Below are positions 1-13,549 of a stretch of 64,000 nucleotides of DNA, one piece after another. The stretch is from Clostridium sp. DSM 17811. Its GTDB lineage: Bacteria > Bacillota > Clostridia > Clostridiales > Clostridiaceae. The position numbers and the translations under genes were made by a program. Location: contig NZ_JAHLDU010000009.1 in assembly GCF_018861905.1 (NCBI RefSeq), positions 1 through 64,000 on the forward strand, in the 5' to 3' direction. Position 1 is the first letter of the stretch, and every line of letters starts with the position of its first letter. Under the pieces are notes generated by a model that saw nothing but the letters and a program-made list of their open reading frames with translations, was not told the origin of the DNA and ran no database searches.

Positions 1-1133
1 CTAGTGACATTTACAGCAGCATTAAATTTAAATTTATTGCTAGATCCAAATTTAGGAGATATAAGTTTTGAAATACTAAAATTCTTATCAATACCTGCTG
101 CTCCAAACCCGGCTTTAAGATCTTTACAAAATATTTTTTTCTGAGCAACTTTTTTCATAAGACCCACATTGCTTAATTCTTTATACATACCCATCTTTTT
201 AAGTGCTTTAAAATCTTTACTTAACCCTAGTGGTGTTTTAACAGCTCCGTATGCTAATGTTGCAACTGACAAAGTAGAAAAAGTTATTTTTCCGTATTTT
301 TCTCCTCCCTTCTTGCCAGCATTAGCACCCTCTTCTCCACCAAATAGATATCCACCAGCATATCCTAATCCACCACCCGCAACTGCCAAAACATCTGAAC
401 CACCTTTTTTGTCCAACCACCTTGACCCTGTAGCATTGCCTGTGCTCTTGTAGTTAGCTAATGCGGCTATATCATACCCCATAGAACTAGCTCCCTTAAA
501 CAACTCAAACCCTGTACATAATTGAGCTCCAAGTGTAGCTCCAAGCAATGGGCCTAGCGCCGCTAAGGAAAGCCCCCCAGTTGGCATAGCAAGTAAAACT
601 ACAGCAACAATCGCAACCACTGCAAGAACATCTTTTGCAACTCCTATCAAATACCTATTTCCACCCTGCCTATACCAATCTTTAATCCCATCTTTAAGAC
701 TTCTTATTTCCTTTTGGCTTAATCCCTTTCCACCTAAGATAACATTTGATAATATAGAAATACCATCAGTCTTTACCGCGTCAAGAATAACAGCAAGTCT
801 ACTAACCTTAATCCCTTTTTCTTTTTCAAACGCTTTTGTATCTGTAGTTATACGGCTAGCAACACGCTGATCTGTTTTTTGAGCCTTTTGAGAAAATTGG
901 CTCATTTTTGTACCAAATAAATTAAGTTTATCAATTTTAGATTGATACTGTATATTCTTTTTATTTATACACTCATTAGCATTTGCAAGATTGCTCCGCG
1001 ATGTAGGTACCAATTTAATATTACTAACTAAATGTTCAAAATTTTCTTTTTTACTTTCAAATATATCTGCCAATCTAGTAGCAGTTGAAGTCGCATCACT
1101 AATTGCGCCATAATCAATAACCATTACACTCAT
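1..1133 (-). CDS. T7SS effector-like (LXG/polymorphic-toxin-like) protein, C-terminus beyond left edge
   Basis: The frame stays open from an ATG at 1133 to the left edge (377 codons), with AGGAGG about 7 bases upstream. The N-terminal ~120 residues are helical and resemble LXG-type targeting domains, including a stretch LNLFGTKMSQFSQKAQKTDQ. Residues ~185-240 form an alanine/glycine-rich hydrophobic segment (VLAVVAIVAVVLLAMP), followed by another Gly-rich stretch (GGGLGYAGGYLFGGEEGA). It is last in the T7SS operon, behind a WXG100 protein and a small coiled-coil protein, the usual place of a secreted toxin. The toxic C-terminal domain and any immunity gene are outside the window, so activity cannot be named. 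I do not see a textbook L-x-G signature, so 'LXG-like' is inference from layout and architecture. Confidence 0.7.
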   Translation of the reverse strand, partial: MSVMVIDYGAISDATSTATRLADIFESKKENFEHLVSNIKLVPTSRSNLANANECINKKNIQYQSKIDKLNLFGTKMSQFSQKAQKTDQRVASRITTDTKAFEKEKGIKVSRLAVILDAVKTDGISILSNVILGGKGLSQKEIRSLKDGIKDWYRQGGNRYLIGVAKDVLAVVAIVAVVLLAMPTGGLSLAALGPLLGATLGAQLCTGFELFKGASSMGYDIAALANYKSTGNATGSRWLDKKGGSDVLAVAGGGLGYAGGYLFGGEEGANAGKKGGEKYGKITFSTLSVATLAYGAVKTPLGLSKDFKALKKMGMYKELSNVGLMKKVAQKKIFCKDLKAGFGAAGIDKNFSISKLISPKFGSSNKFKFNAAVNVT

Positions 1134-1177
1134 GATTTCCTCCTATATTTATAATATATTACACCTATGTATTTACA

Positions 1178-1654
1178 CTATTGCCCCATTGATAAAATAT
1201 TAGCTTTCATGCTCTCTATTTTGGCATCAGCAGCTGCCTTTAGCGCATCTACCGCTTGTCCATTTCCATCTTTAACGTTCTTTTCAACCTCAGCAATTTC
1301 CTTTTGAACATTAGCTTTAGCTTCTAATATACTAGCTTTTACAGACGCTATTTTAGCATCTCTAATCGCTTTTTTTTCTGCTGCCTCTTGTTCAATTTCC
1401 CTTTGGACAGCGTCAATCTCATATTGAATATTATTCTGAGCACTTATGACATTAGCATCACTCTCAAGTGATCCTTCCTTTAAGTTAGTTATTCTTTCAA
1501 TTGTATTTCCTAAATTATCACTTTTAACACTACTTATAAAAAATTCGTGTAACCTAAGTGTTTCACCATTAATATTGTCAATTAGAAAACTATCTTGTAC
1601 CAAAGACCTTTTATACCTTATTAATTCCCTGTGAATTTCCTTCTTATCTATAAT
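1178..1654 (-). CDS. Small coiled-coil T7SS accessory protein (YwqH/Lap-like), probable ATT or ATA start
   Basis: An Ala/Glu/Lys-rich helical protein of about 158 residues, heptad-like from ~70 to the C-terminus, between the WXG100 gene and the effector-like gene. This matches the place of YwqH/DUF5082 or LXG-associated (Lap) partner proteins that help deliver an effector; the family assignment is inference. No ATG or GTG exists in this frame: the first conventional start is TTG at 1603, with a weak site in front. A perfect AGGAGG (1660-1665) instead precedes ATT (1652-1654, 5-base spacing) and ATA (1649-1651, 8-base spacing), and the frame is open from there, with a TAG just upstream at 1664-1666. 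I therefore extend the gene to the ATT. If that is wrong, the protein starts at 1603 (141 aa). Confidence 0.6.
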   Translation of the reverse strand: MIDKKEIHRELIRYKRSLVQDSFLIDNINGETLRLHEFFISSVKSDNLGNTIERITNLKEGSLESDANVISAQNNIQYEIDAVQREIEQEAAEKKAIRDAKIASVKASILEAKANVQKEIAEVEKNVKDGNGQAVDALKAAADAKIESMKANILSMGQ

Positions 1655-1692
1655 TCTCTCCTCCTATTTTCCTACATTTATGCCCCTTAGCT

Positions 1693-2163
1693 TTAAAATG
1701 CACCGCCACCTCCGTTACCACTATTAAATGGATTAGTGCTATTCCCAGTAAACGGATTATTACTACCACCATTAAACTGGTTATTATTATTCCCTGTAAA
1801 CGGCTTATTGTTACCTCCTAAAACAGGAGGAGTGTACGGTTTTTGAGGAACTGCTGCCTTAGGCTTTAGTTGACCTGCTAACTGAGTATCCCAATCCACA
1901 TAAGATTTCATACAATCTTGCAAATCCTCTTTTATTGTAAATAAATTATCCTCTTCATCCTTAAGCTGAGTTTTAAGTCTACCATACTGCTTCTCAAAAG
2001 AATTCTTGCCTTTTCCCTCCCAATCAAATAATAATTTTTCTGTTGAATCAAATACCCTTTCTCTGGCTACTCTGTAAGTTTTCACTGCTTTTTCAAACCC
2101 ATTAATAGCCTCCTGGAAATTTTTTGTATCTATTTTTTTTACACTGCCTGTATCTCCTATCAT
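1693..2163 (-). CDS. WXG100-family T7SS substrate with NPF-rich C-terminal tail
   Basis: Predicted 156-residue secreted helical-hairpin protein of the ESX/WXG100 family. The W-x-G turn is visible as DWEG at residues ~48-51 between two helices, and a YxxxD export motif (YVDWD) follows the second helix at ~88-92. Typical WXG100 proteins are about 100 residues. This one adds a proline-rich linker and a low-complexity tail in which a Pro-Phe/Asn-Gly unit recurs (NNKPFTGN, NNQFNGGS, NNPFTGNS, TNPFNSGN), ending in Gly-Gly-Ala-Phe. It lies 11 bp after essC and before the coiled-coil and effector-like genes, consistent with being a carrier or partner for secretion. The tail is unusual and its role is unknown. 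Confidence 0.85.
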   Translation of the reverse strand: MIGDTGSVKKIDTKNFQEAINGFEKAVKTYRVARERVFDSTEKLLFDWEGKGKNSFEKQYGRLKTQLKDEEDNLFTIKEDLQDCMKSYVDWDTQLAGQLKPKAAVPQKPYTPPVLGGNNKPFTGNNNNQFNGGSNNPFTGNSTNPFNSGNGGGGAF

Positions 2164-2174
2164 TTATTAACCCC

Positions 2175-5100
2175 CTACTCATTAAGTATTGTTTTGATTT
2201 TTTCAACTTCGCCTCCAAAACATAAATATCCATCACCAGGTTTTATTGGTTTGCTAAATTCTTTCTGCTGTTTAAATTCTATATCAACAAACTTTAAGTT
2301 AACTACATCATCAAATACGATTACCTTCTTATTTTCTTTTATTTGTTTAACTATTTCTGGAGTACCATATGCTACTGCTGCGTTATCCAAATTTGTAAAT
2401 ATAACAGCAACTTTTAAGTTCTTTAACTGTTTCGTCATTTTTGAAAACTTATCATAAAGCTCTTTATCTTTCGCTGTTTCCTCAATAAAGCTAGAATTCT
2501 CTATAACTAGTAAAATTAATGGATATTCTTTTAGAAGTTCACTCTCAGGTTTTGTACCTCTTCGCTGTATTAAATCACTTTGTCTATTTTCAAGTTTTTC
2601 TATAATGTTATCAATCATTCCTGCTATGTCAGCTGTATCAATTGTATATTGTTTAACATAACCAAAATCCTTAACACTTTCAAGTTGACGCTTCATGCTA
2701 TCGAAAACATATGCTTCTGTCAAATTATTGAAAATAGTTTTATTTATAGTTGTCATAAGGTGTTTAATAAAGTTTGTTTTCCCACTCTTTTCTCTTCCCA
2801 TAATAGCGAGCATTCCTATTGTTAATAAGTTTATATGATTAAATGCTACTGTTGAATAATCAATACCAATAGGAATTTCATATGGGCTAGCAAACTGAGC
2901 TCTATTACTTTCAAATACCTCACTACCCTTAAGTATTTCTGGAACCTCAGGAATTTGTCTTGCTTTCTGCATCGCATACTTAGCTTTGTTATCCTCTACA
3001 AATGCCTTCAATTTTTCTGCTCTAATTATTTCCTTATCACCCTTTACGCATAATGCAGTCTGGAATTCTACAATATGCTTATCCATCATGTATAGAGCTC
3101 GTCCGGGAGTATCCTTTGGTTGAATCCTACATCTTTCAAAAATGTTAGAATACTCACCTTTGTCATTACAAGTATATGCAATTCTAGTACCAAAATTGGC
3201 AAGCGTCTTATATCCCATTGCATTAGTTTGTGTTGCTGTTGTAATTATATTAATTCCCACACTTTGTCCTTCACGTGATAAATTTAATAATTCATCATCA
3301 TATAAAGGATAATATTCCCTAAATGCAGAAATATTGTCAATTACGAAGAGTATTTGTGGTAAATTCTTAAATCCTGCTTCTTTATATGCCTCAAATGTTC
3401 CAACACTATTATTTGAGAAAAAGGTTTTTCTAATATCAATCTCATTATGAAGCATTCTAAACAAATTACTTATTCGTTCTTCCTCAGCTGGTAATACAAT
3501 ACCACCTATATGGTTTGAGTTTTCAAACACCTTCATTGCCATATTTCCACAATCTATTACATAAATATTTACTTCAAGCGGTGTATAATTATCCATAATT
3601 GAATATATCATTGTCTGAAGTATCGTTGTCTTTCCTGATTGTGATGAACCGATAATAAAGGTATTACTATCTGATAAATTAATATTTAATTCAGTTTGTA
3701 ATTGTTGTTCTGGATCATCATACAGCCCAACCGTCGCCATTATACCTGTCACAATGTCTATTACACAAGATTTTAATATATCTAGATAAATTACATTCTC
3801 TAATGGAGGTTGGCAAATACCTGCTAATTTTTTAATGTTATCAACTTTGCAATAATTATTTACATATTCAATAACAGCTTGCAATTGAGTCTTTACATTT
3901 TTGTCCTCATCAGTCTTTTTATTAGAGTATATTAACTGTTTCTTACCCCATAAATTTAGTTTATTTAATTCAAAAACATTACTATTTCCACCATCTGCTA
4001 CTATTGCTTTTGCTCCACTGTAGGCAGATTGGAAAAGTTCAAATATTTCATTGTTACCGACTTGCAGATATGCCCTACCTGGTTCAACAATTTCAGCAGC
4101 TAGCGGTGTTTTGATTACTTCGTTACTATCCTCTTTAGTTTGAACTTTAAGACATAATTTAAACTTAGAGTTACTCCAAATCTGGTTATCTACTACTCCA
4201 GATGGCTTTTGAGTTGCAAGTATTAAATGAACACCCAAACTTCTACCTATTCTTGCCGTACTTATTAACTCCTTCATAAATTCTGGATACTCACTTTTGA
4301 GTTCTGCAAATTCATCTACAATTATTATTAAATGAGGTATTGGATCTGTTGCCTTTCCATCCCTATAAAGCTTTATGTATGCATCAATATGATTTACATC
4401 ATACCTTGAAAACATCTCCTGTCTACGGCGTAGTTCCGCCTTTATCGATAGAAGTGACCTATCTATCTCTCTACCATCAATATTTGTAATTGAACCTATC
4501 AAATGTGGTAATTCCCTAAATTGATTGGCCATTCCGCCACCTTTGAAATCAATAATCATAAATCCAACTTCATAGGGATGAAAAAGTGTTGCCATTGATA
4601 ATATATATGTTTGAAGTATTTCACTCTTACCTGAACCTGTAGTACCTGCAACAAGTCCATGTGGTCCATGATGTTTTTCGTTAAGGTCTAAATATACTAT
4701 CTGATTTTTAGTTCTAACTCCTAGTGGCGCAGCCATGCTTTTATAAACCCTTGATTCTGACCATCTAGTGTTTAAATCAAGATCATCCACTGACAAAATG
4801 TTAAGTAATTCAAAGAGTGATATATTTTTAGTTAGTTCGCTTTCTAAACTAACTGCATCAACTGATACTGCAGTTAACTTCAAAATAGCATCTTCCATTG
4901 TTTTGTCTGGTATCTTAGAATATTCAAACTTTGAAACATAATCTCCATTATCACTTTGTAATAAACAACCAGTACTACTATTATCAAGCCTTATTATTTC
5001 GCTACATCCCTTGGGAAGAAGTTCTTCATATTCTTCAAAGAACACAAAAGTAAAGTTGTACTTATTACATGTTTCTATATACTTAGATACCGGATGTTTT

Positions 5101-6761
5101 TCAATACCCTTCTTATCAAAAACAAAAATAACATAACTAGTTTCTATCTGGTCATTGCTTCTCCTTGATAATCCAGCTTCTCTTTTAGAGAGTTCTATAA
5201 ATAGATTCTCTAATATGTAATTTCTACTTTCTTCGTCATACATTAAATTTCTAATGCTATTGTCTTCATCTTCGTTATTAACATTTTTAAGCCATCTTAA
5301 CCATGCAAACTTTTCATGGTCCTCTTCTTTAAACATGTAAAATAGCTTTACATCTTTATAAAATTGCCTAGTTGTAATGTCCAATGTAATAGTTTTTAAA
5401 ATATCATATAATTGATCACGCTTACCTACAATACCAATTGTATTGGATTTTGAGAACTTTGATATTATTGGTGAATTCGCAATAAATCGATACTTTTTTT
5501 CTATCTTTTCTGGCATTGACACTAATTCATCATCAGTGTTTTTAAATTCTTGCTTAGTATATTTTATTTTGCAATTTGCTTCATTTATACCTGTTCCAAG
5601 TCTTACAAACATGAAGTCCTCATCATTTAAATCTCTTTCAAAGAGATCCTTACCAAAATCTTTTATTGTGGTAATATCATCATCAATAGATCTATATACT
5701 TTTTCTAAAATTCTCTGTTCATTACTACGTTTGCCCTGAATTTCTTTTTCTTTTTCTTCTATGTATTCCAGGTATTTTTCCTTACGTTCAATAATAGACT
5801 TCTTATAACTTTTTCCATCCGTCATAAATGTAATAATAGACACTAAAACTCCAATGCTCATTGTTGCAGCACTGTATATAATAAACGAACCTCCACCACC
5901 CATTGATCCTCTAAGCATAACAACAAGTGCTAACATAGCGAGGGCAGGTAGCAATGTTACTATAATGTTTTTCTTTGGTTTTTGTGGTTTTGTTATTGGC
6001 TGCAATACTTCAATTTCTTCTGAGGGTATTACATACTTTACTCTTGTACTTCTATTAAACTTTGGATACTTAAATGCACTTTTCTGTTCGACAGCATCCA
6101 TATAGTTTAGTTTATCAACTATTAAATTCTCATTTCTAGATGTATATAGGTGCTTATCCTTTAAATAAAAGCTGTATCCTACAAGCTCAAAAAAGTCATA
6201 ATCCAAAATTTGTGAATATTCATCTATCTTTGTTCCATTTATATAAACACCATACTTTGTATTATTATCTGTAATGTAATACTTATTGTCTTTTAAACTT
6301 AGGGTAATGGTGTCACTTTCAAGAAGCGTATCACAAATATAAATATTGCACCTATCAGTTCCGCCAATTGTTATAGACTGTACTTCACCAATATCTATAA
6401 TACGTTCATAATTTTTTTCTACCAACCCGAAATCAATAAAAAAATTAATCCTGAATATTTCACCGTTGGAATTCTGGTTCTTGACAATAATTTCATCACC
6501 ATGAGATAAATCCTTTGAATATATTTTCATTACACCATCTACAGTAAAATAAACGCTATCCCCTCCGTTTAACTGCCAACCATCATTAGTCCTAACTAGA
6601 TTAAACTCGAATTCACCAAAGAAATTATCTTTATTAAATCTGAGCTGACAGTTTTTTGTAGTTCCTACGTTAATTAAATCTTCTTCTGAATTTGATAGCT
6701 CATATTCGCGGTAAATATTTTTCCCGAAAATTATTATCTTATATTTAGTATCCTTAAGCAC
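2175..6761 (-). CDS. essC: EssC/YukB-type T7SS motor ATPase
   Basis: Membrane-anchored FtsK/SpoIIIE ATPase that drives T7SS secretion, 1528 residues, the usual EssC size. Order seen: two FHA-like domains (~1-100 and ~105-205); two membrane segments (~265-284 and ~292-313); a helical linker; then three ATPase modules. Module 1 has Walker A GTTGSGKS (~706-713) and Walker B LIIIVDE (~811-817). Module 2 has GSSQSGKT (~1038-1045) and ILFVIDN (~1137-1143). Module 3 has GREKSGKT (~1322-1329), with LILLVIE in its Walker B position. All three P-loops retain GKS/T, whereas distal modules are degenerate in some family members. It starts 13 bp after the yukD-like stop and is clearly in its operon. The FHA-like domains lack an obvious phosphothreonine-binding set, as is known for EssC. 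Confidence 0.95.
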   Translation of the reverse strand: MLKDTKYKIIIFGKNIYREYELSNSEEDLINVGTTKNCQLRFNKDNFFGEFEFNLVRTNDGWQLNGGDSVYFTVDGVMKIYSKDLSHGDEIIVKNQNSNGEIFRINFFIDFGLVEKNYERIIDIGEVQSITIGGTDRCNIYICDTLLESDTITLSLKDNKYYITDNNTKYGVYINGTKIDEYSQILDYDFFELVGYSFYLKDKHLYTSRNENLIVDKLNYMDAVEQKSAFKYPKFNRSTRVKYVIPSEEIEVLQPITKPQKPKKNIIVTLLPALAMLALVVMLRGSMGGGGSFIIYSAATMSIGVLVSIITFMTDGKSYKKSIIERKEKYLEYIEEKEKEIQGKRSNEQRILEKVYRSIDDDITTIKDFGKDLFERDLNDEDFMFVRLGTGINEANCKIKYTKQEFKNTDDELVSMPEKIEKKYRFIANSPIISKFSKSNTIGIVGKRDQLYDILKTITLDITTRQFYKDVKLFYMFKEEDHEKFAWLRWLKNVNNEDEDNSIRNLMYDEESRNYILENLFIELSKREAGLSRRSNDQIETSYVIFVFDKKGIEKHPVSKYIETCNKYNFTFVFFEEYEELLPKGCSEIIRLDNSSTGCLLQSDNGDYVSKFEYSKIPDKTMEDAILKLTAVSVDAVSLESELTKNISLFELLNILSVDDLDLNTRWSESRVYKSMAAPLGVRTKNQIVYLDLNEKHHGPHGLVAGTTGSGKSEILQTYILSMATLFHPYEVGFMIIDFKGGGMANQFRELPHLIGSITNIDGREIDRSLLSIKAELRRRQEMFSRYDVNHIDAYIKLYRDGKATDPIPHLIIIVDEFAELKSEYPEFMKELISTARIGRSLGVHLILATQKPSGVVDNQIWSNSKFKLCLKVQTKEDSNEVIKTPLAAEIVEPGRAYLQVGNNEIFELFQSAYSGAKAIVADGGNSNVFELNKLNLWGKKQLIYSNKKTDEDKNVKTQLQAVIEYVNNYCKVDNIKKLAGICQPPLENVIYLDILKSCVIDIVTGIMATVGLYDDPEQQLQTELNINLSDSNTFIIGSSQSGKTTILQTMIYSIMDNYTPLEVNIYVIDCGNMAMKVFENSNHIGGIVLPAEEERISNLFRMLHNEIDIRKTFFSNNSVGTFEAYKEAGFKNLPQILFVIDNISAFREYYPLYDDELLNLSREGQSVGINIITTATQTNAMGYKTLANFGTRIAYTCNDKGEYSNIFERCRIQPKDTPGRALYMMDKHIVEFQTALCVKGDKEIIRAEKLKAFVEDNKAKYAMQKARQIPEVPEILKGSEVFESNRAQFASPYEIPIGIDYSTVAFNHINLLTIGMLAIMGREKSGKTNFIKHLMTTINKTIFNNLTEAYVFDSMKRQLESVKDFGYVKQYTIDTADIAGMIDNIIEKLENRQSDLIQRRGTKPESELLKEYPLILLVIENSSFIEETAKDKELYDKFSKMTKQLKNLKVAVIFTNLDNAAVAYGTPEIVKQIKENKKVIVFDDVVNLKFVDIEFKQQKEFSKPIKPGDGYLCFGGEVEKIKTILNE

Positions 6762-6774
6762 TACTTTTCTCCCC

Positions 6775-7023
6775 CTACACAGTAATATTTATTACTGTAC
6801 CGTTTCTAAGTTTATAATCTTTCAATTTAGTATTACCTTTGAGCAAAGCTATCGGATTTTCAGTCTTTAGATAACACTCAGTGATACTACTTACATCTAT
6901 TCCTAAATTAAAAGCCTGATTCAAAGAAACCACAAGGTCCTTTGCTGTTATATCCAATGGTATTTCAACATCAAATTTTTTACCACTTTTATGAATATAT
7001 ATAACTACAACAATTTTATCCAT
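6775..7023 (-). CDS. YukD/EsaB-family ubiquitin-like T7SS protein
   Basis: An 82-residue protein with the YukD pattern: an N-terminal beta-hairpin (IVVVIYIHKSGKKFDVEIP), a helix, and a closing strand ending in GTVINITV, giving a ubiquitin-like fold. YukD/EsaB is a small cytosolic component required for, or regulating, T7SSb secretion; it lacks the di-glycine tail of ubiquitin, and this copy also ends without one. It sits directly before essC as in many Firmicute T7SS operons, 16 bp after the ParA-like gene. Confidence 0.9.
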   Translation of the reverse strand: MDKIVVVIYIHKSGKKFDVEIPLDITAKDLVVSLNQAFNLGIDVSSITECYLKTENPIALLKGNTKLKDYKLRNGTVINITV

Positions 7024-7039
7024 ATCAAATCTCCCCCAA

Positions 7040-8098
7040 TCAAATGAGCGTATAGGCTAGCTTTTGAAAATGTTTATTCATAGCCAAAAATTCAAGGTCA
7101 AAGCTTGCATAATCAAGTTCAAAACATTCTATATATTCACTTATTGTACACTTATTATTTAAGTTACTACTTATAAGCCAATTAACTAATTGTCCAGAAT
7201 ACTTATTACAAATAAACATATATTTATTATTATCAGAGCAATCAATGTTTTCAAGTAAACTGTCTAACTTAGAAACAGATACCGCATCCTGACCTGTTAT
7301 TATCATAACCCTATCACAATAACTCATCATCATCGTTTTTTCGCCCGTAAAATCTGATGAACAATCTACCACTACATAATCATATTGTCCTGCTTCTCTA
7401 ACAGCTTCTATTAAACGCTTATAATGCTCCATATTAATATTTAAAGAAGATATAGACTGCTTAAATGGTAATAAATAATCAAACATTTCCACTCCAACCG
7501 CTGAAGATAAATACTGAGTAATATTTTCCTCTCGCTGTATAATACGTTTTTCAAAGCTATGTGGACAAAATTCTTTATTTTTCAACATAAAATTATATCG
7601 CTGCAAGGTTTCTGTATTTATGTATAACACATGTTTATGACACTTTGCAATTGCTGCACTTATACCTAGTGCCACAATAGTTTTACCAGAACCTCCTGAA
7701 GGTGAATACACCATTACTACTTTAGTATCTTCCTTCTGATTAATTCTTCTTAACAACTTTGGTGAGGGATTACTCATAATCTCATTAAAAATCTCCTTAA
7801 CACTTGTATACTTATATATTTTATTAATACTCATATCTTGAGTACTATTAACATCATTTGATTCCGTTAGTATAAATAAGTTTTCAATAGAGTGTTTTTC
7901 AAGGTCACGTGTATATAATGTCTCATGTATAATCAATATGTCTATCTTCTTAAGTGAATTAAAATAAGATTTAAAATACTCTTTATCTGATATAACTTCT
8001 ATATTTGCTTTATCTCCAAACTCCTTAATAAATTTTAATTCTAGTGGCATTAAATATTTTTCGTCTGTATCCGCTAACACTACAACCAATTTGCTCAT
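7040..8098 (-). CDS. ParA/MinD-like ATPase of the T7SS locus (CpaE/TadZ-like)
   Basis: A predicted 352-residue P-loop ATPase of the MinD/ParA/CpaE type. The N-terminal ~115 residues resemble a degenerate receiver domain, as in CpaE/TadZ proteins. A deviant Walker A (SPSGGSGKT) lies at ~132-140, and a strand ending VVVDCSSDF (~240) is the switch/Walker B region. Such ATPases position membrane machines. Here it sits between the PP2C gene and yukD, so a role in placing or assembling the T7SS is plausible but inferred. I start at the ATG at 8098 because GGAAGGAAAG lies at the right distance; an in-frame ATG at 8119 has no ribosome site. Confidence 0.8.
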   Translation of the reverse strand: MSKLVVVLADTDEKYLMPLELKFIKEFGDKANIEVISDKEYFKSYFNSLKKIDILIIHETLYTRDLEKHSIENLFILTESNDVNSTQDMSINKIYKYTSVKEIFNEIMSNPSPKLLRRINQKEDTKVVMVYSPSGGSGKTIVALGISAAIAKCHKHVLYINTETLQRYNFMLKNKEFCPHSFEKRIIQREENITQYLSSAVGVEMFDYLLPFKQSISSLNINMEHYKRLIEAVREAGQYDYVVVDCSSDFTGEKTMMMSYCDRVMIITGQDAVSVSKLDSLLENIDCSDNNKYMFICNKYSGQLVNWLISSNLNNKCTISEYIECFELDYASFDLEFLAMNKHFQKLAYTLI

Positions 8099-8144
8099 GA
8101 AAAAACACTTTCCTTCCATAATATACTGAACATATAAGTATCAT

Positions 8145-8879
8145 TTACTTGCTGATTCTAGCAAGAATTAAGGTAATATTGTCTGTTTCACCACGATCTT
8201 TAACTTCATTTATTATACTTTCACATGCCTTTTCTAAATCCATCTTTTGTTTGCTAACCATTTCCAAAATTTCATTTTCTCCAATGGTCTTATAAATTCC
8301 ATCACTACACACCATAAAAATATCATTTTTTGAAATTTTGCCTGTTGCACAGTAATAATTAATTTCGGCTCTATTTCCTAAACATTCTGTCAAAGCGCTC
8401 TGCTTATATATTTTTCCGTTTATTGTCTTATCCACAAGACAAGAATGATCTATAGTTAATCTTTCAATTTTCCTTGTTACTTTATAAATTCTACTGTCAC
8501 CTATATGTACAATATAATAGATATTCTTATGAATAAATAAAACAGATAACGTCGTAGCGGTTCTAACATTTTTTAATCTTGAATAGCTCATAATCTCTTC
8601 GTTACATTTAGTAAAACATTCAATTAAAGATGGTATCAATTTTCCCGTATCATTATAAAAGTTTCTAAAATCACAATTCCACCATTTATTAAAATTTGAA
8701 ATCGCTATTGCACTGGATATCTCTCCGTCCTTTAGCCCTCCCACTCCATCTGCCACAGCAAATAATCCTGCATGAGCGTCCTGAACTTCAACTACTTTGT
8801 ATACAAAACTATCTTGGTTAACTGCTTTTACTATTCCCTTATCTGATATTCCAAAAGAATTAATTTTAAAATTGCCCAT
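8145..8879 (-). CDS. PP2C-family serine/threonine protein phosphatase
   Basis: A 244-residue soluble Stp1/PrpC-like phosphatase. The metal- and phosphate-binding signatures are all present: NQDS (21-24), ADGVGG (43-48), GDSRIYK (127-133), CSDGIY (191-196) and the C-terminal DNITLI (233-238). The family removes phosphate from Ser/Thr residues using two Mn/Mg ions. In Firmicutes it is usually next to a PASTA kinase; here the neighbours are an FHA-domain membrane protein and T7SS genes, and no kinase is in the window. That suggests reversible phosphorylation of T7SS components, a point of inference. Confidence 0.9.
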   Translation of the reverse strand: MGNFKINSFGISDKGIVKAVNQDSFVYKVVEVQDAHAGLFAVADGVGGLKDGEISSAIAISNFNKWWNCDFRNFYNDTGKLIPSLIECFTKCNEEIMSYSRLKNVRTATTLSVLFIHKNIYYIVHIGDSRIYKVTRKIERLTIDHSCLVDKTINGKIYKQSALTECLGNRAEINYYCATGKISKNDIFMVCSDGIYKTIGENEILEMVSKQKMDLEKACESIINEVKDRGETDNITLILARISK

Positions 8880-8919
8880 GTGATATTTGTCATTCCTCTC
8901 GCGTTAAACCCTGCCTAAG

Positions 8920-10323
8920 TCATTTAGCAGTTTTAACCATAAAGTCACTGTTTGACAATCTTACTTTATCTCCAATTTGTATTTGAACCCGTTGCCCCTT
9001 TTGTAGTTTAACTAAATTAACATAAGTTCCGTTAGAACTTTCAAGGTCCTCAATCACATAAGAATTATTAATGTAGGATACCTTGCAATGAACCCTGCTT
9101 ATTGTTTTATTAAATTGAATAACTCCATCAACAGCTTCAGGGTTTTTACCTATGATAAATTCAGGTTTACTAATAACAATCTTTGTGTTTTCTTTTGTCC
9201 CAATTCCTGTTAGCGAAATAGAAGGTACGAATATGCCGTCTAATACTTCAGTAGCTCCGCCTTCATATATTGGCTTGAAATCCATATTACTTGGTGCCTG
9301 CACCTTTTTCTTTTTTTTCAAAACAAAAATATAAATCAGTATTGATGTTATTAAATCAATAACTAATATTACAGCAATTGAAATCATAGATGTTTTAGAC
9401 TTATAATTAAAACTAAGTATTATTCCTACACAAATGAGCACTGTACAAATTTGAATAATAATTAATATAGGTGGCTTTATTAAGTGTATCTTTCTATCAT
9501 TAGCTTTTGGTTTAATATTTTTAGTTTTGGTTTTAGGTTTAAGTTTATGCATAAGTTTAAGTCTAGGTTGAGCCTTATCCGTATCTATAACCTTTATATT
9601 TTCAATTTCTCTGTCCTCAAAATTATCATCTCCAGGTGCTAGTGATTCACTTCCTTGTCCTGTATGCAATGAATTTATAGGTAGCTTCTTACTACCTTCT
9701 GATGGTGCCTCTCCACTTTGATTACCAAATTCATTCTTCATTGGATCTCTTATAATAATATTTTTCTTCATATTTTCTTTAATTTCATCTAATCGATAAT
9801 TCTCATTTTGAAGATCATTATAAAGTCCATATACCATTTCTTTATTTAGATTATTATTTTCAGAAATTGCTTCTGCTAAATTTTTCTTAAGTTCTCTCTC
9901 AAATATTCCAATGCTACTTAAGCTCGTATGTGTGTTAACTGGAAGGTATATAAAAAAAACATTCAAATTATTGCTATCAATAAAAATTTTATCTAAATTC
10001 ACCTCAACGTTCTCACACTGCATAAACCCATTATGTTTAACTTCTGATACAATATTGAGCACTCTAGATACTATTGATAAAAAATTTTCCGGTGTAAGCT
10101 GGTGTAATAATGACTTAAGGCTTTTATATTTCGAAATATCATAAACTAACTTTGTTTTTCCATTATGTGAAACTTTAACACATTTTATAAATCCATTTTT
10201 CTCTTGATTCTGTAACACCTTATATCCAGTTTCGAAAAAAAGGTATTCTTGTTCCAATATATAACTTATATTAGAATTGTATCTATTTTCTTTAATTAGA
10301 TCATTTACAACTAAATTGTTCAT
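8920..10323 (-). CDS. DUF6382-FHA membrane protein, possible EssB counterpart of the T7SS
   Basis: A 467-residue protein. Residues 1-~180 are a DUF6382-like globular domain; ~190-280 a polar, basic linker; two membrane segments (~284-305, ~312-336); ~383-465 a canonical FHA domain with GK (392-393), SRVH (409-412) and SNGT (430-433), the residues that bind phosphothreonine. Just before the FHA domain is GGATEVLD (~355-362), similar to the threonine-containing motif phosphorylated ahead of FHA domains in other bacterial proteins. First gene of the T7SS operon, with GGGG-type ribosome site. EssB/YukC also has a cytosolic (pseudokinase-like) N-domain plus a membrane helix; no separate EssB is seen, so this may fill that role. 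Inference. Confidence 0.8.
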   Translation of the reverse strand: MNNLVVNDLIKENRYNSNISYILEQEYLFFETGYKVLQNQEKNGFIKCVKVSHNGKTKLVYDISKYKSLKSLLHQLTPENFLSIVSRVLNIVSEVKHNGFMQCENVEVNLDKIFIDSNNLNVFFIYLPVNTHTSLSSIGIFERELKKNLAEAISENNNLNKEMVYGLYNDLQNENYRLDEIKENMKKNIIIRDPMKNEFGNQSGEAPSEGSKKLPINSLHTGQGSESLAPGDDNFEDREIENIKVIDTDKAQPRLKLMHKLKPKTKTKNIKPKANDRKIHLIKPPILIIIQICTVLICVGIILSFNYKSKTSMISIAVILVIDLITSILIYIFVLKKKKKVQAPSNMDFKPIYEGGATEVLDGIFVPSISLTGIGTKENTKIVISKPEFIIGKNPEAVDGVIQFNKTISRVHCKVSYINNSYVIEDLESSNGTYVNLVKLQKGQRVQIQIGDKVRLSNSDFMVKTAK

Positions 10324-10674: not shown

Positions 10675-12513
10675 TTATTTCTCCATAGGTAACGTAAATA
10701 TAAAATTACTCCCTTTGTCAACTTCACTTTCACAATAAATTGTTCCATCATGTGCTTCTACAATACCCTTTGCTATAGAAAGCCCAATCCCCGAACTCAA
10801 AAATTCTGTATCATAGGCACTTATCTTAACAAACTTTTCAAATATTTTCTCATGATATTCTCTAGGAATTCCTTTACCGTTGTCTTTAACAAAAACTTTC
10901 ATTTTTTCTCCATCTATAAATGCACCTATAGTTATTTTTCCACCAGAATGAGTATATTTAATAGCATTAGAAACTAGATTATTTAATACCCAAGTTATTT
11001 TCTCTTTATCTACAATTACATTAGGTAAATCAACTTCTACACTATTATATAAAGTAATTCCTATGTTTTTTGCCTGGACCTCATAATTTTTAACACAGTC
11101 ACTTGCAATCTCAGCTATCGAATATGCTTTTATATTATATACTGCCTGATCCGACTGTATCTTTGAAAGTCTTAGAAGATCACTAACTAGATCTGTAAGC
11201 TTTTCAGTCTCTTCTTTTATAGTATCTAAAAGCTCTTCCTGTTTTTGATTTATGACTCCTACATTTTTCTCAAGTATTAAGCCTACACCCATCATAATAG
11301 ATGTAAGTGGAGTTTTAAATTCATGAGAAATTGTAGCTATAAAATCTGTACGCACTTTTTCAAGCTCCTTATATTCTGTTATATTTTTTAAAAGTACCAC
11401 TATAGCATTAATTTTATTTTCTTTATCATAAACTACAGTTACTATAATATTAAAAAAACAAGTTCTATCATTTACCTTAAGGCTTATTATCTTTTCAGTA
11501 ATCGGAACCTTATTGTCTACCACACAAAAAATATAATCATATAATTCCATATTTCTAATGGTCTCTAAAAAATGACTATTAATCACATTTTGTTCTAATA
11601 CTCCGAAAATGTTTTCACAAGACTCATTTAATAATTGAATTTTATAACTAGCATCAAGTACTATTAATGGATCTGTTATACTTTTTACAATTGCAATAGA
11701 TTTATTTCTCTCTGAAAGTAACTTCCCGGTAGTACTCTGCTCAAATTCGTAAAGCCTATTTGTCATATTATTAAATTCCATTGCAAGCATTCCAATTTCA
11801 TCCTCATTTATCACAGGTGCTTGTTTATTAATTTCTCCTTGTTTAACTGATTTTATAGTCTCAGTAAGTAGATATATAGGTTTTAAAGACTTATTTGTAA
11901 ATATAAGCGATATTATTAATCCTATAATTGCAGCTATGGAGGAAATTAATAATATAAAATGCATTGCATTTAATGCATTACTTTTTGCATTATCCCTCCC
12001 TTTAAACATAGCTTTCTCATTCAGTTTTGCTAAAATTCCTAAATCGGCTTTAACCTTAACTACAGAAGGATAAATTTTAGAATTGTAGAATTTTATATTT
12101 TCCTGGCTTGTGTGAGAAGTTTTATATTCGTGAAATTTTGAGAAAGATTTAACAAACAGAAGATAGTCCTCACTTATTTTATTAGTATTATTAGCTTCAC
12201 CAACTTCAGTTATATTAGTTTTTGCAACATTAAGCCACTTATAAAATTCTTCATTGTTATTATAAATAATATCTATTGTACTTTTATTTTCAAAAGCAAT
12301 ATATCTAAGAATTGTCTTATCCTGAGTTTCAATAACCTCAGTCATTTTAGTTGAAGCATCAATACTCTTGTAATTGTTTGTTATTAATCCATCTATCTTT
12401 CCACCTACTCTGTATATGTTAAAGCTTGAGAGCAGTCCAATCATTACTATAACTAAAACTAAAAACACATTAATAATTACAATTTTGCTTTTTAATGTTT
12501 TAATAAAACACAC
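10675..12513 (-). CDS. Membrane sensor histidine kinase (HAMP-PAS-HisKA-HATPase), formerly kdp-linked
   Basis: A 612-residue kinase: TM1 (~11-31), an extracytoplasmic helical sensor (~32-180), TM2 (~184-206), HAMP (~206-258), PAS (~270-380), HisKA with the phospho-accepting His in SHEFKTP (H397), and a C-terminal ATPase domain with NLVSNAIKY, DNGKGIP and GIGLSIAKG boxes. Everything needed for autophosphorylation is intact. The gene follows a receiver-protein gene and a kdpD remnant on the same strand, so it may once have served the kdp system. The start is uncertain: GTG at 12513 nearly touches the GAGGGGG ribosome site, while ATT at 12504 would be better spaced (~9 bases). Confidence 0.9.
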   Translation of the reverse strand: MCFIKTLKSKIVIINVFLVLVIVMIGLLSSFNIYRVGGKIDGLITNNYKSIDASTKMTEVIETQDKTILRYIAFENKSTIDIIYNNNEEFYKWLNVAKTNITEVGEANNTNKISEDYLLFVKSFSKFHEYKTSHTSQENIKFYNSKIYPSVVKVKADLGILAKLNEKAMFKGRDNAKSNALNAMHFILLISSIAAIIGLIISLIFTNKSLKPIYLLTETIKSVKQGEINKQAPVINEDEIGMLAMEFNNMTNRLYEFEQSTTGKLLSERNKSIAIVKSITDPLIVLDASYKIQLLNESCENIFGVLEQNVINSHFLETIRNMELYDYIFCVVDNKVPITEKIISLKVNDRTCFFNIIVTVVYDKENKINAIVVLLKNITEYKELEKVRTDFIATISHEFKTPLTSIMMGVGLILEKNVGVINQKQEELLDTIKEETEKLTDLVSDLLRLSKIQSDQAVYNIKAYSIAEIASDCVKNYEVQAKNIGITLYNSVEVDLPNVIVDKEKITWVLNNLVSNAIKYTHSGGKITIGAFIDGEKMKVFVKDNGKGIPREYHEKIFEKFVKISAYDTEFLSSGIGLSIAKGIVEAHDGTIYCESEVDKGSNFIFTLPMEK

Positions 12514-12549
12514 CCCCTCGTAAAATTCAATATACCTTTTAATTGTATT

Positions 12550-12770
12550 CTAGTGAACGGGATCTGCAACCACAAGCACATCAATATATTTGGTATCTCT
12601 CATTATCGTTCTAACAATTGAACCCCTTAAAATCTCATGAAATCTAGTTCTAGCAGATGGGCCTATAATTATCTGGGTTATATTATTACAAGTTTTTCAT
12701 CCACTTCATTTGCAACTTCTCTTAAAGTAAGTTCTCTTAATGCGGTTAGCTTTCTTTTTCATAAGCCTCC
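12550..12770 (-). pseudogene. kdpD remnant (sensor N-domain/Usp fragments)
   Basis: Two collinear minus-strand pieces match KdpD. Upstream, ~12690-12760 encodes LTALRELTLREVANEVDEKL, the end of the KdpD ATP-binding N-domain. Then, in another frame, ~12552-12680 encodes NITQIIIGPSARTRFHEILR followed by GSIVRTIMRD and a valine-rich end before TAG (12550-12552), the tail of the Usp-like domain. The roughly 100 codons expected between them are missing and the frames do not join. This is a collapsed gene: a large internal deletion of a KdpD-type sensor lying between the receiver gene and the histidine kinase. Recognition rests on family memory, not on a search. Confidence 0.7.
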
Positions 12771-12837
12771 ACCTACTATCACATCCTAAACATATTTTCA
12801 TTATCAATATAATTTCTATATAATCATTATATTATGT

Positions 12838-13461
12838 TTAAATATGTGAATCATTAAATAGTTCATAAATATTATTAAATAATTCTGCTTCATCAAATTT
12901 ATTTAAGTTCTTATTTACCTCACTTATTAAATTATAAATTTCTTTATTATAAGGGTTTATTCCGAGTACTATTTTTAAAGTATTATGTGCTTCTTCAAAT
13001 TCTCCCTCTTCAAGCAACTTCTTTGATTTTACTATTAATACCTCTTCTTCTTCTAAATCTTTTGAACTTTCAACAAAACTTTTATCAAGGTTTTCATTTG
13101 AAGTAAAGATTTCTTCTAAAACAGAAGTAACTCTATCTGGCGAAAATGGTTTCTGAAGGTAAGCTGCGGCTCCAAGTTTTGTGCAATCAACAGCATTTTT
13201 TACCGTAGCAAATGCGGTCATAATAATAACGGGACAATTAAAACCCATATCGCGAATTATCTTTAAAACCTCTGTTCCGCTCATTTCCGGCATTCTTATA
13301 TCTAAAAATATTATATCAATACTTTGCTTTTCTTCTTTTAATATATCTATAGCTGATTTACCAGAATCCGCAGTAAGAACTTTATAACCTTTTAGTTCAA
13401 GACATGTGGTTAATAACATTCTTATATTTTTTGTATCATCTATTACCAAAACCTTTTTCAT
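12838..13461 (-). CDS. Response regulator: receiver domain with helical (TPR-like) tail
   Basis: Residues ~1-120 form a CheY-like receiver (KVLVIDDTKN; phospho-acceptor Asp in IIFLDIRMPE; conserved Thr in MTAF; Lys in LQKPFS). The remaining ~85 residues are helical with TPR-like spacing (EGEFEEAHNTLKIVLGINPY). There is no DNA-binding domain, so it is not a KdpE-type regulator; it probably acts by protein contact. It lies between kdpC and kdpD remnants and ahead of the histidine kinase, its likely partner. I start at the ATG at 13461, preceded by GGTGA; the in-frame GTG at 13470 is too close to its Shine-Dalgarno. Confidence 0.85.
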   Translation of the reverse strand: MKKVLVIDDTKNIRMLLTTCLELKGYKVLTADSGKSAIDILKEEKQSIDIIFLDIRMPEMSGTEVLKIIRDMGFNCPVIIMTAFATVKNAVDCTKLGAAAYLQKPFSPDRVTSVLEEIFTSNENLDKSFVESSKDLEEEEVLIVKSKKLLEEGEFEEAHNTLKIVLGINPYNKEIYNLISEVNKNLNKFDEAELFNNIYELFNDSHI

Positions 13462-13549
13462 ATTATTCACCTACCTCATTAATTTTATTGTTCACATAAA
13501 TCTAAGATTGTACTGAAATAATTACATTATATAATAGATTTTTTCCTTT

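Follow-up and report, generated by a model that had tools for sequence, protein, structure and literature searches.

The first 10,323 bases of the DNA analyzed here (the window, a stretch of 64,000 nucleotides from Clostridium sp. DSM 17811) encode an EssC-type ATPase of a type VII secretion system (T7SS) together with a DUF6382-FHA protein, a protein phosphatase and a ParA-like ATPase. This raises the question of which protein fulfills the role of EssB and what the accompanying genes contribute to secretion. The original prediction was of a secretion machine switched by phosphorylation, and it proved half right: the substitution of EssB and the phosphorylation wiring gained support, while neither the novelty of the system nor the restriction of its genes to EssC held. 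The same component set (TsfJ, F, V, B, C and A) has been reported from several Clostridia, and the locus is a member of subtype T7SSf, already named by Garrett, Higginson and Palmer in 2024; in the available parts of their paper, the definition of subtypes e, f and j rests on prediction and on which genes lie nearby (PMC11217815). Searches for further literature on T7SSf or on DUF6382 found nothing beyond that paper. The interest of the locus lies in points that go beyond those parts, namely the relationship of DUF6382 to EssB, the sharing of the module with Tad pili, a set of genes around a kinase, and a specific residue proposed as phosphosite. The best explanation, to which we assign a probability of about two in three, is a T7SSf machine in which TsfJ takes the place of EssB, a kinase and a phosphatase operate a phospho-switch, and TsfV places the machine in the cell.

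TsfJ (467 aa; 8920–10323, minus strand, as are all eight genes of the locus) comprises a DUF6382 domain (48.3 bits, cut-off 26.7), a linker, two predicted transmembrane (TM) helices and an FHA domain (57.6 bits). The helices were located by hydropathy at residues 286–304 (9412–9468) and 316–334 (9322–9378). The DUF6382 domain (residues about 3–192; 9748–10317) was compared by hhalign with the N-domain of YukC, giving a score of 45.9, against at most 26.1 in 74 control families. These families are partly non-independent, as TadZ-like proteins recur among them, and kinases, DUF6382 and YukC were excluded from the set; the profile was also closer to YukC than to the kinases tested, and the relationship concerns the N-domain only. 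In a first control set of 59 families, two had scored 134–140 over 22–41 columns against both queries. These were judged to be alignment artefacts, and therefore the profiles were trimmed and the run was repeated with the 74 families; in the repeat, the L075_01 family scored 23.8 against DUF6382 and the L180_10 family was not among the best matches listed. The fold predicted by AlphaFold2 is protein kinase-like, and structure alignment (VIA-align ranking) revealed its resemblance to the EssB/YukC-type pseudokinase. A search of PDB sequences with the DUF6382 profile found nothing relevant (best E 0.055), so that the relationship is visible only by profile-profile and fold comparison. A search for EssB/YukC itself (PF10140) found nothing at E ≤ 1 in the genome of the window, while three of ten relatives gave matches of 8e-71 to 3e-103 in the same search. 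The proposal that the DUF6382-FHA protein stands in place of EssB was thus strengthened. If DUF6382 is an EssB-type pseudokinase, this replacement becomes testable through binding between DUF6382 and the FHA region of EssC.

The eight genes run leftward between positions 3 and 10323 with short gaps, and open reading frames assigned by Pfam and NCBIfam confirmed the gene set first proposed from the sequence (FHA/DUF6382, PP2C, ParA/MinD, YukD, EssC, WXG100, coiled coil, effector-like). TsfF (8145–8879) is a PP2C/PPM-type Ser/Thr phosphatase (PP2C_2, 36.3 bits, cut-off 24) with the usual catalytic motifs in place by eye; its match to the Stp1 model, 147 bits, lies under that model's cut-off of 230. 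TsfV (7040–8119) had been called ParA/MinD-like; the ATPase part stood (AAA_31, 44.8 bits), and a weak match to a TadZ-like receiver domain (17.7 bits, cut-off 27.4) makes "TadZ-like" the more exact name. Although the receiver match is below the Pfam cut-off, TsfV groups with other T7-linked TadZ-like proteins in a tree. TsfB (6775–7023) is a YukD/EsaB ubiquitin-like protein (36.5 bits). TsfC (2175–6761; TIGR03928, 1230 bits, cut-off 778) is the single EssC above cut-off in the genome and has two N-terminal FHA-like domains, degenerate by eye, with an FHA match at 131–184 (24.4 bits). TsfA (1693–2163) is a WXG100 protein with a Gly/Asn-rich tail and a WEG motif, scoring 27.2 bits, 0.1 under the cut-off of 27.3. 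Downstream of it lie a small coiled-coil protein (1178–1603; no family above cut-off), a candidate Lap (substrate partner) with homologues at the same position in two relatives, and an effector-like candidate T7 substrate (3–1133; no family), which is open at the contig edge and has paralogues on another contig, C56. The genome assembly has 98 contigs totalling 5.19 Mb (completeness 100). Base 1 of the window is also base 1 of its contig, C9, so that the sequence left of the locus cannot be read directly. Promoter and terminator scans (91 hits against 80 expected and 2 against 3.2, respectively) were not used. On the other side of the locus, at 10675–13470 and on the same strand as tsfJ, are genes for a HAMP-PAS-HisKA histidine kinase and a response regulator; the former ends about 350 bases upstream of tsfJ, and no tie to the T7 system was found.

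A phosphorylation switch would call for a Ser/Thr kinase, and the available parts of the 2024 paper link a phosphatase to T7SSf and report no genetically associated kinase (PMC11217815). Contig C9 carried no Pkinase match, and a genome search found a suitable kinase near the end of contig C18. This 648-aa protein has a TM helix and TPR repeats and is TsjD-like, with 50% identity over its full length to a T7SSj kinase of a relative, G040. The same region encodes a 104-aa membrane protein (K) and a divergent 1042-aa protein (I) with an Ig-like domain, a signal-like N-terminus and a C-terminal TM helix, 37% identical over 490 aa to the neighbor of the G040 kinase. Similar sets stand beside T7SSf genes in relatives. 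In C. fimetarium DSM 9179 the kinase gene (2680–4767), a 92-aa membrane protein and a 1639-aa protein are followed on one strand by J-F-V-B-C-A; by Pfam the kinase is clear, and the TPR and Ig-like matches are under their cut-offs. In G044 a kinase (sharing 49% identity over 698 residues with the C. fimetarium kinase), a 103-aa membrane protein and a 1326-aa protein lie five genes upstream of F-J-V-B-C-A, and in G055 a J-PP2C-kinase-large protein group precedes the T7SSf genes, with a contig break between. When five genomes were searched at E ≤ 0.01 with the large protein of C. fimetarium, G044 alone gave a match and the genome of the window gave none, so I-type proteins either evolve rapidly or are not the same. 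The final gene of C18 has about 90% DNA identity to a gene on C56, the contig that also has the substrate paralogues. This is an indication that C18, C56 and C9 come from a single region, although the pieces are unjoined and their order is unproven. A kinase that fits T7SSf thus exists in the genome, and with its neighbors it may supply what the 2024 paper found to be missing. The C56 stretch (L092, 9142 bases) looks like a duplicated substrate/immunity array: it contains two paralogues of the candidate substrate, partial or complete, one of them split in several frames, and three tandem genes of 177–179 aa, of which the one scanned has no family, along with a TPR gene and two WXG100-like genes.

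A possible target of the kinase was found in TsfJ itself. In many J proteins an ETTVLL-like stretch lies about 25 residues ahead of the FHA domain. The pattern [DEGTSQNA]x?T[VEQTSILK][VILFYCM][LFIDVN], searched from 45 residues before to 12 after the FHA start, was present in 40 of the 61 FHA-matched proteins (64 given), compared to 8.9 expected by shuffling and 43/322 in other segments; because the pattern was written after many J tails had been viewed, this count is exploratory. With pattern and profile fixed beforehand, 19 further J proteins with unseen tails gave 15 of 17 FHA-matched cases (2.7 expected; other segments 14/96), which are not independent events, since many are closely related to each other or to the first set. 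In T7-linked J proteins the motif is less regular (7/12), and in one locus (L214) it is located at the FHA domain itself. The tails of K-like proteins show the same kind of motif in 8 of 9 cases, with a chance expectation of 0.27–0.71 per tail. In the window the motif reads GATEVL (residues 356–361; 9241–9258), resembling the ETT motif of OdhI/GarA, and its threonine, T358, is invariant in the three closest aligned J proteins. T358 is therefore named as the predicted phosphosite of TsfJ, a specific residue to examine. The FHA domain that follows (residues 390–456; 8956–9156, by Pfam and alignment) retains by eye the S, H and NGT positions, with GK where GR is usual. A regular expression for the FHA motif letters gave unreliable counts and was not used.

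From these observations we infer the following mode of action. TsfC would export the WXG100 protein and the neighboring candidate substrates. TsfJ would replace EssB, its membrane-anchored DUF6382 pseudokinase docking on the degenerate FHA domains of TsfC, as EssB does in T7SSb. The C18 kinase, of the TsxD type, may phosphorylate threonines in K as well as T358 in the TsfJ linker. The FHA domain of TsfJ could then bind the phosphorylated K tail, which would recruit TsfJ to the kinase and the Ig-like surface protein; alternatively, it could bind its own linker and close, as in OdhI/GarA. In either case the binding state of this FHA domain would determine whether EssC is held or released, opened or closed, TsfF would reset the switch, and the positioning of the complex at a single site would fall to TadZ-like TsfV.

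The specificity of these genes for EssC was examined across the window's class, presumed to be Clostridia, in 391 genomes. DUF6382 was present in 127 of them (118 above cut-off), and EssC at E ≤ 1e-100 in 31 (29 above cut-off). Every third of 132 listed DUF6382 places was sampled, giving 44 loci in stretches of up to 20 kb, often shortened by contig ends and labeled with profiles built in this analysis. The pilus genes CpaF or TadB/C accompanied DUF6382 in 35 of the 44 loci (CpaF in 31), TadZ in 21, a kinase in 10, PP2C in 6 and EssC in one; seven loci had neither Tad gene. In two of the 44 the DUF6382 gene was not refound by the profile, and one of these, with a TadB/C-like gene, was left uncounted. 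From the EssC side (31 of 32 listed places; the 32nd, L198 of G327, also has a J gene), J was near 7 of the 31 loci and TadZ near 3, and the window was the only one with J, PP2C, TadZ and EssC in one stretch. The strict form of T7SSf is accordingly rare in the class-wide sample; the other T7SSf loci discussed here come from nearer relatives and one named record. The genes are thus not specific to EssC as had been supposed, and their conservation independently of essC holds in part, for the DUF6382-FHA genes beside Tad genes. Among individual Tad loci, Pfam identified a TadZ-like protein, T2SSE, two T2SSF, DUF6382-FHA and PP2C in L077; in L074 the ATPase is T2SSE, and the TadZ-like protein found by profile (1713–2720) has no Pfam match at E ≤ 0.001. 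Three further stretches (L081, L183, L188) contain DUF6382 genes with PP2C and/or a kinase, and neither Tad nor EssC genes; they are either cut Tad loci or a free-standing signaling cluster.

These counts bear most directly on the strongest competing explanation, which we consider unlikely while giving it real weight: TsfJ would be a Tad-type regulatory scaffold and not a stand-in for EssB, the channel would be formed by an unrecognized membrane protein or by EssC alone, and J, V and F would only regulate or place it. Since J genes occur in Tad loci lacking EssC, binding to EssC is not necessarily what the pseudokinase evolved for. An extracellular part is absent from TsfJ, and the ATPases of T7SSc, T7SSg and T7SSh lack FHA domains according to the available parts of the 2024 paper (PMC11217815). 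At least two TM helices were predicted in 4 of 14 T7-linked J genes, compared to 28 of 40 Tad-linked ones (cut genes included), and this recount slightly lowered our confidence in the best explanation, from 0.68 to 0.66, with a correspondingly small rise for two of its rivals. Against the scaffold stand the greater closeness of DUF6382 to YukC than to any of the controls and the published description of T7SSf, which in the parts available names TsfC and TsfJ as its only membrane proteins (PMC11217815).

That the FHA, PP2C and TadZ genes form a separate signaling operon or a pilus remnant lying next to essC by chance is very improbable. In its favor, the same kinds of genes occur with Tad pili. 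In G008, a genome of the window's genus with no EssC above cut-off, a TadZ-CpaF-TadB-TadC set (L237) is followed about 10 kb further on by J, PP2C and a kinase, and then by genes for a small membrane protein and a protein of 1693 aa. However, the order J-F-V-B-C-A or F-J-V-B-C-A, with YukD between TadZ and EssC, is kept in the window and in L072 (the same stretch as G031), C. fimetarium (L073), G040 (L079) and G044 (L085), and the genome of the window has no clear Tad CpaF (best match 42 bits; G008, from which the query was taken, gave 873 bits and G031 gave 383).

The EssC tree (41 rows, SH-aLRT only, midpoint root) placed the window in a 13-row clade with L072, C. fimetarium, G055 (L098), G040 (L079), G044 and seven others, apart from the YukC-bearing (T7SSb) EssCs and from the T7SSj EssC of G040. 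The expected absence of EssB stood across the whole genome; that of EsaA stood for the eight locus genes, while two tandem genes on contig C41 (L093; 8145–10472 and 10526–12724) matched the EsaA model at 86 and 82 bits (cut-off 122). Matches beside T7SSb EssCs in G020 and G064 reached 110 and 99 bits, likewise under the cut-off, so the score alone cannot exclude the C41 genes; the first of them, the one scanned with Pfam, also matches ABC2_membrane_3, and EsaA-model matches away from EssC occur in relatives too. A canonical T7SSb with its EssA, EssB and EsaA genes elsewhere in the genome is the least credible alternative, resting on these C41 matches and on searches that covered the EssB and EsaA models and not EssA, and opposed by the lack of any EssB match and by the position of the window's EssC. 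In G322 a YukC-bearing EssC locus and a DUF6382 gene beside Tad genes (L204, L195) occur together, and therefore one genome can hold both kinds of pseudokinase.

The presence of parts of the same kind (J, V and F, at times with the kinase, K and I) in Tad-pilus loci of Clostridia suggests that one module places and gates both a pilus and an export machine. We tentatively extend this, at somewhat less than even confidence, to a single portable membrane module of Clostridia (TadZ-like positioner, DUF6382-FHA protein as an EssB-type pseudokinase with an OdhI-like FHA switch, PP2C, TPR kinase, K and large Ig-like surface protein) that would drive two machines unrelated to each other, the Tad pilus with CpaF and the T7 system with EssC; T7SSf, e and j would be its T7 versions, and the EssB of T7SSb a relative in which the FHA switch was lost. 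Since T7-linked and Tad TadZ-like proteins are split by one weak branch only (44/83), and T7-linked J proteins fall in three places of their tree with well-supported branches forcing a single change, the trees favor neither direction of transfer between Tad and T7. Literature searches combining the Tad pilus, FHA and Clostridia, or TadZ, FHA and phosphatase, found only PMC11217815.

Compared with known systems, the Tad loci share the TadZ-like ATPase and the DUF6382-FHA protein, and sometimes PP2C, a kinase, K and a large surface protein, and they differ in carrying the pilus ATPase CpaF and TadB/TadC instead of EssC, YukD and WXG100. The EssB/YukC of T7SSb, like TsfJ, has a membrane-anchored pseudokinase in the cytoplasm, and the two agree in fold and roughly in extent, whereas the eight genes of the locus include no EsaA. 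An EssB-like pseudokinase outside T7SS is also known from a Gram-positive type IV secretion system, TraF of pIP501; this is a conjugation system, and its abstract mentions no FHA domain (PMC13037476). In OdhI/GarA, as described in the parts of the source available, a phosphorylatable ETTS motif in the N-terminal region precedes the FHA domain and the partner kinase PknG has a TPR scaffold (PMC8546545); in contrast, TsfJ sits in the membrane and includes a pseudokinase domain, and the C18 kinase has a TM helix.

Among type VII systems, the T7SSj locus of G040 (L086) shares J, F, C, B and A as well as kinase D, a small K and a divergent large protein, and differs in the clade of its EssC and in having no TadZ labeled nearby. 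G040 has three EssC systems in one genome (T7SSf type, L079; T7SSj type, L086; and a YukC-bearing one, L094), and f and j loci are reported together in C. acetobutylicum and C. felsineum (PMC11217815). Four further EssCs, each within a few kb of a DUF6382-like gene (L198, L217, L218, L220; families f62 and f67), form their own tree group and may represent another T7SS arrangement; in three of the four the linker of the DUF6382-like protein is a long EEARKAEEARL-type repeat, and a kinase is labeled nearby in two. With T7SSf as published, the window agrees in all six components, gathered in one cluster: TsfA, TsfB, TsfC with FHA domains, TsfF, TsfJ as DUF6382-2TM-FHA and TsfV as a TadZ-like receiver (TadZ-ARD) with an ATPase. 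It differs in that DUF6382, given no fold in the available parts of that paper, here matches the EssB pseudokinase, and in that a kinase set with K and the Ig-like I, where the paper found no kinase, is present in the genome and linked to T7SSf genes in relatives (PMC11217815).

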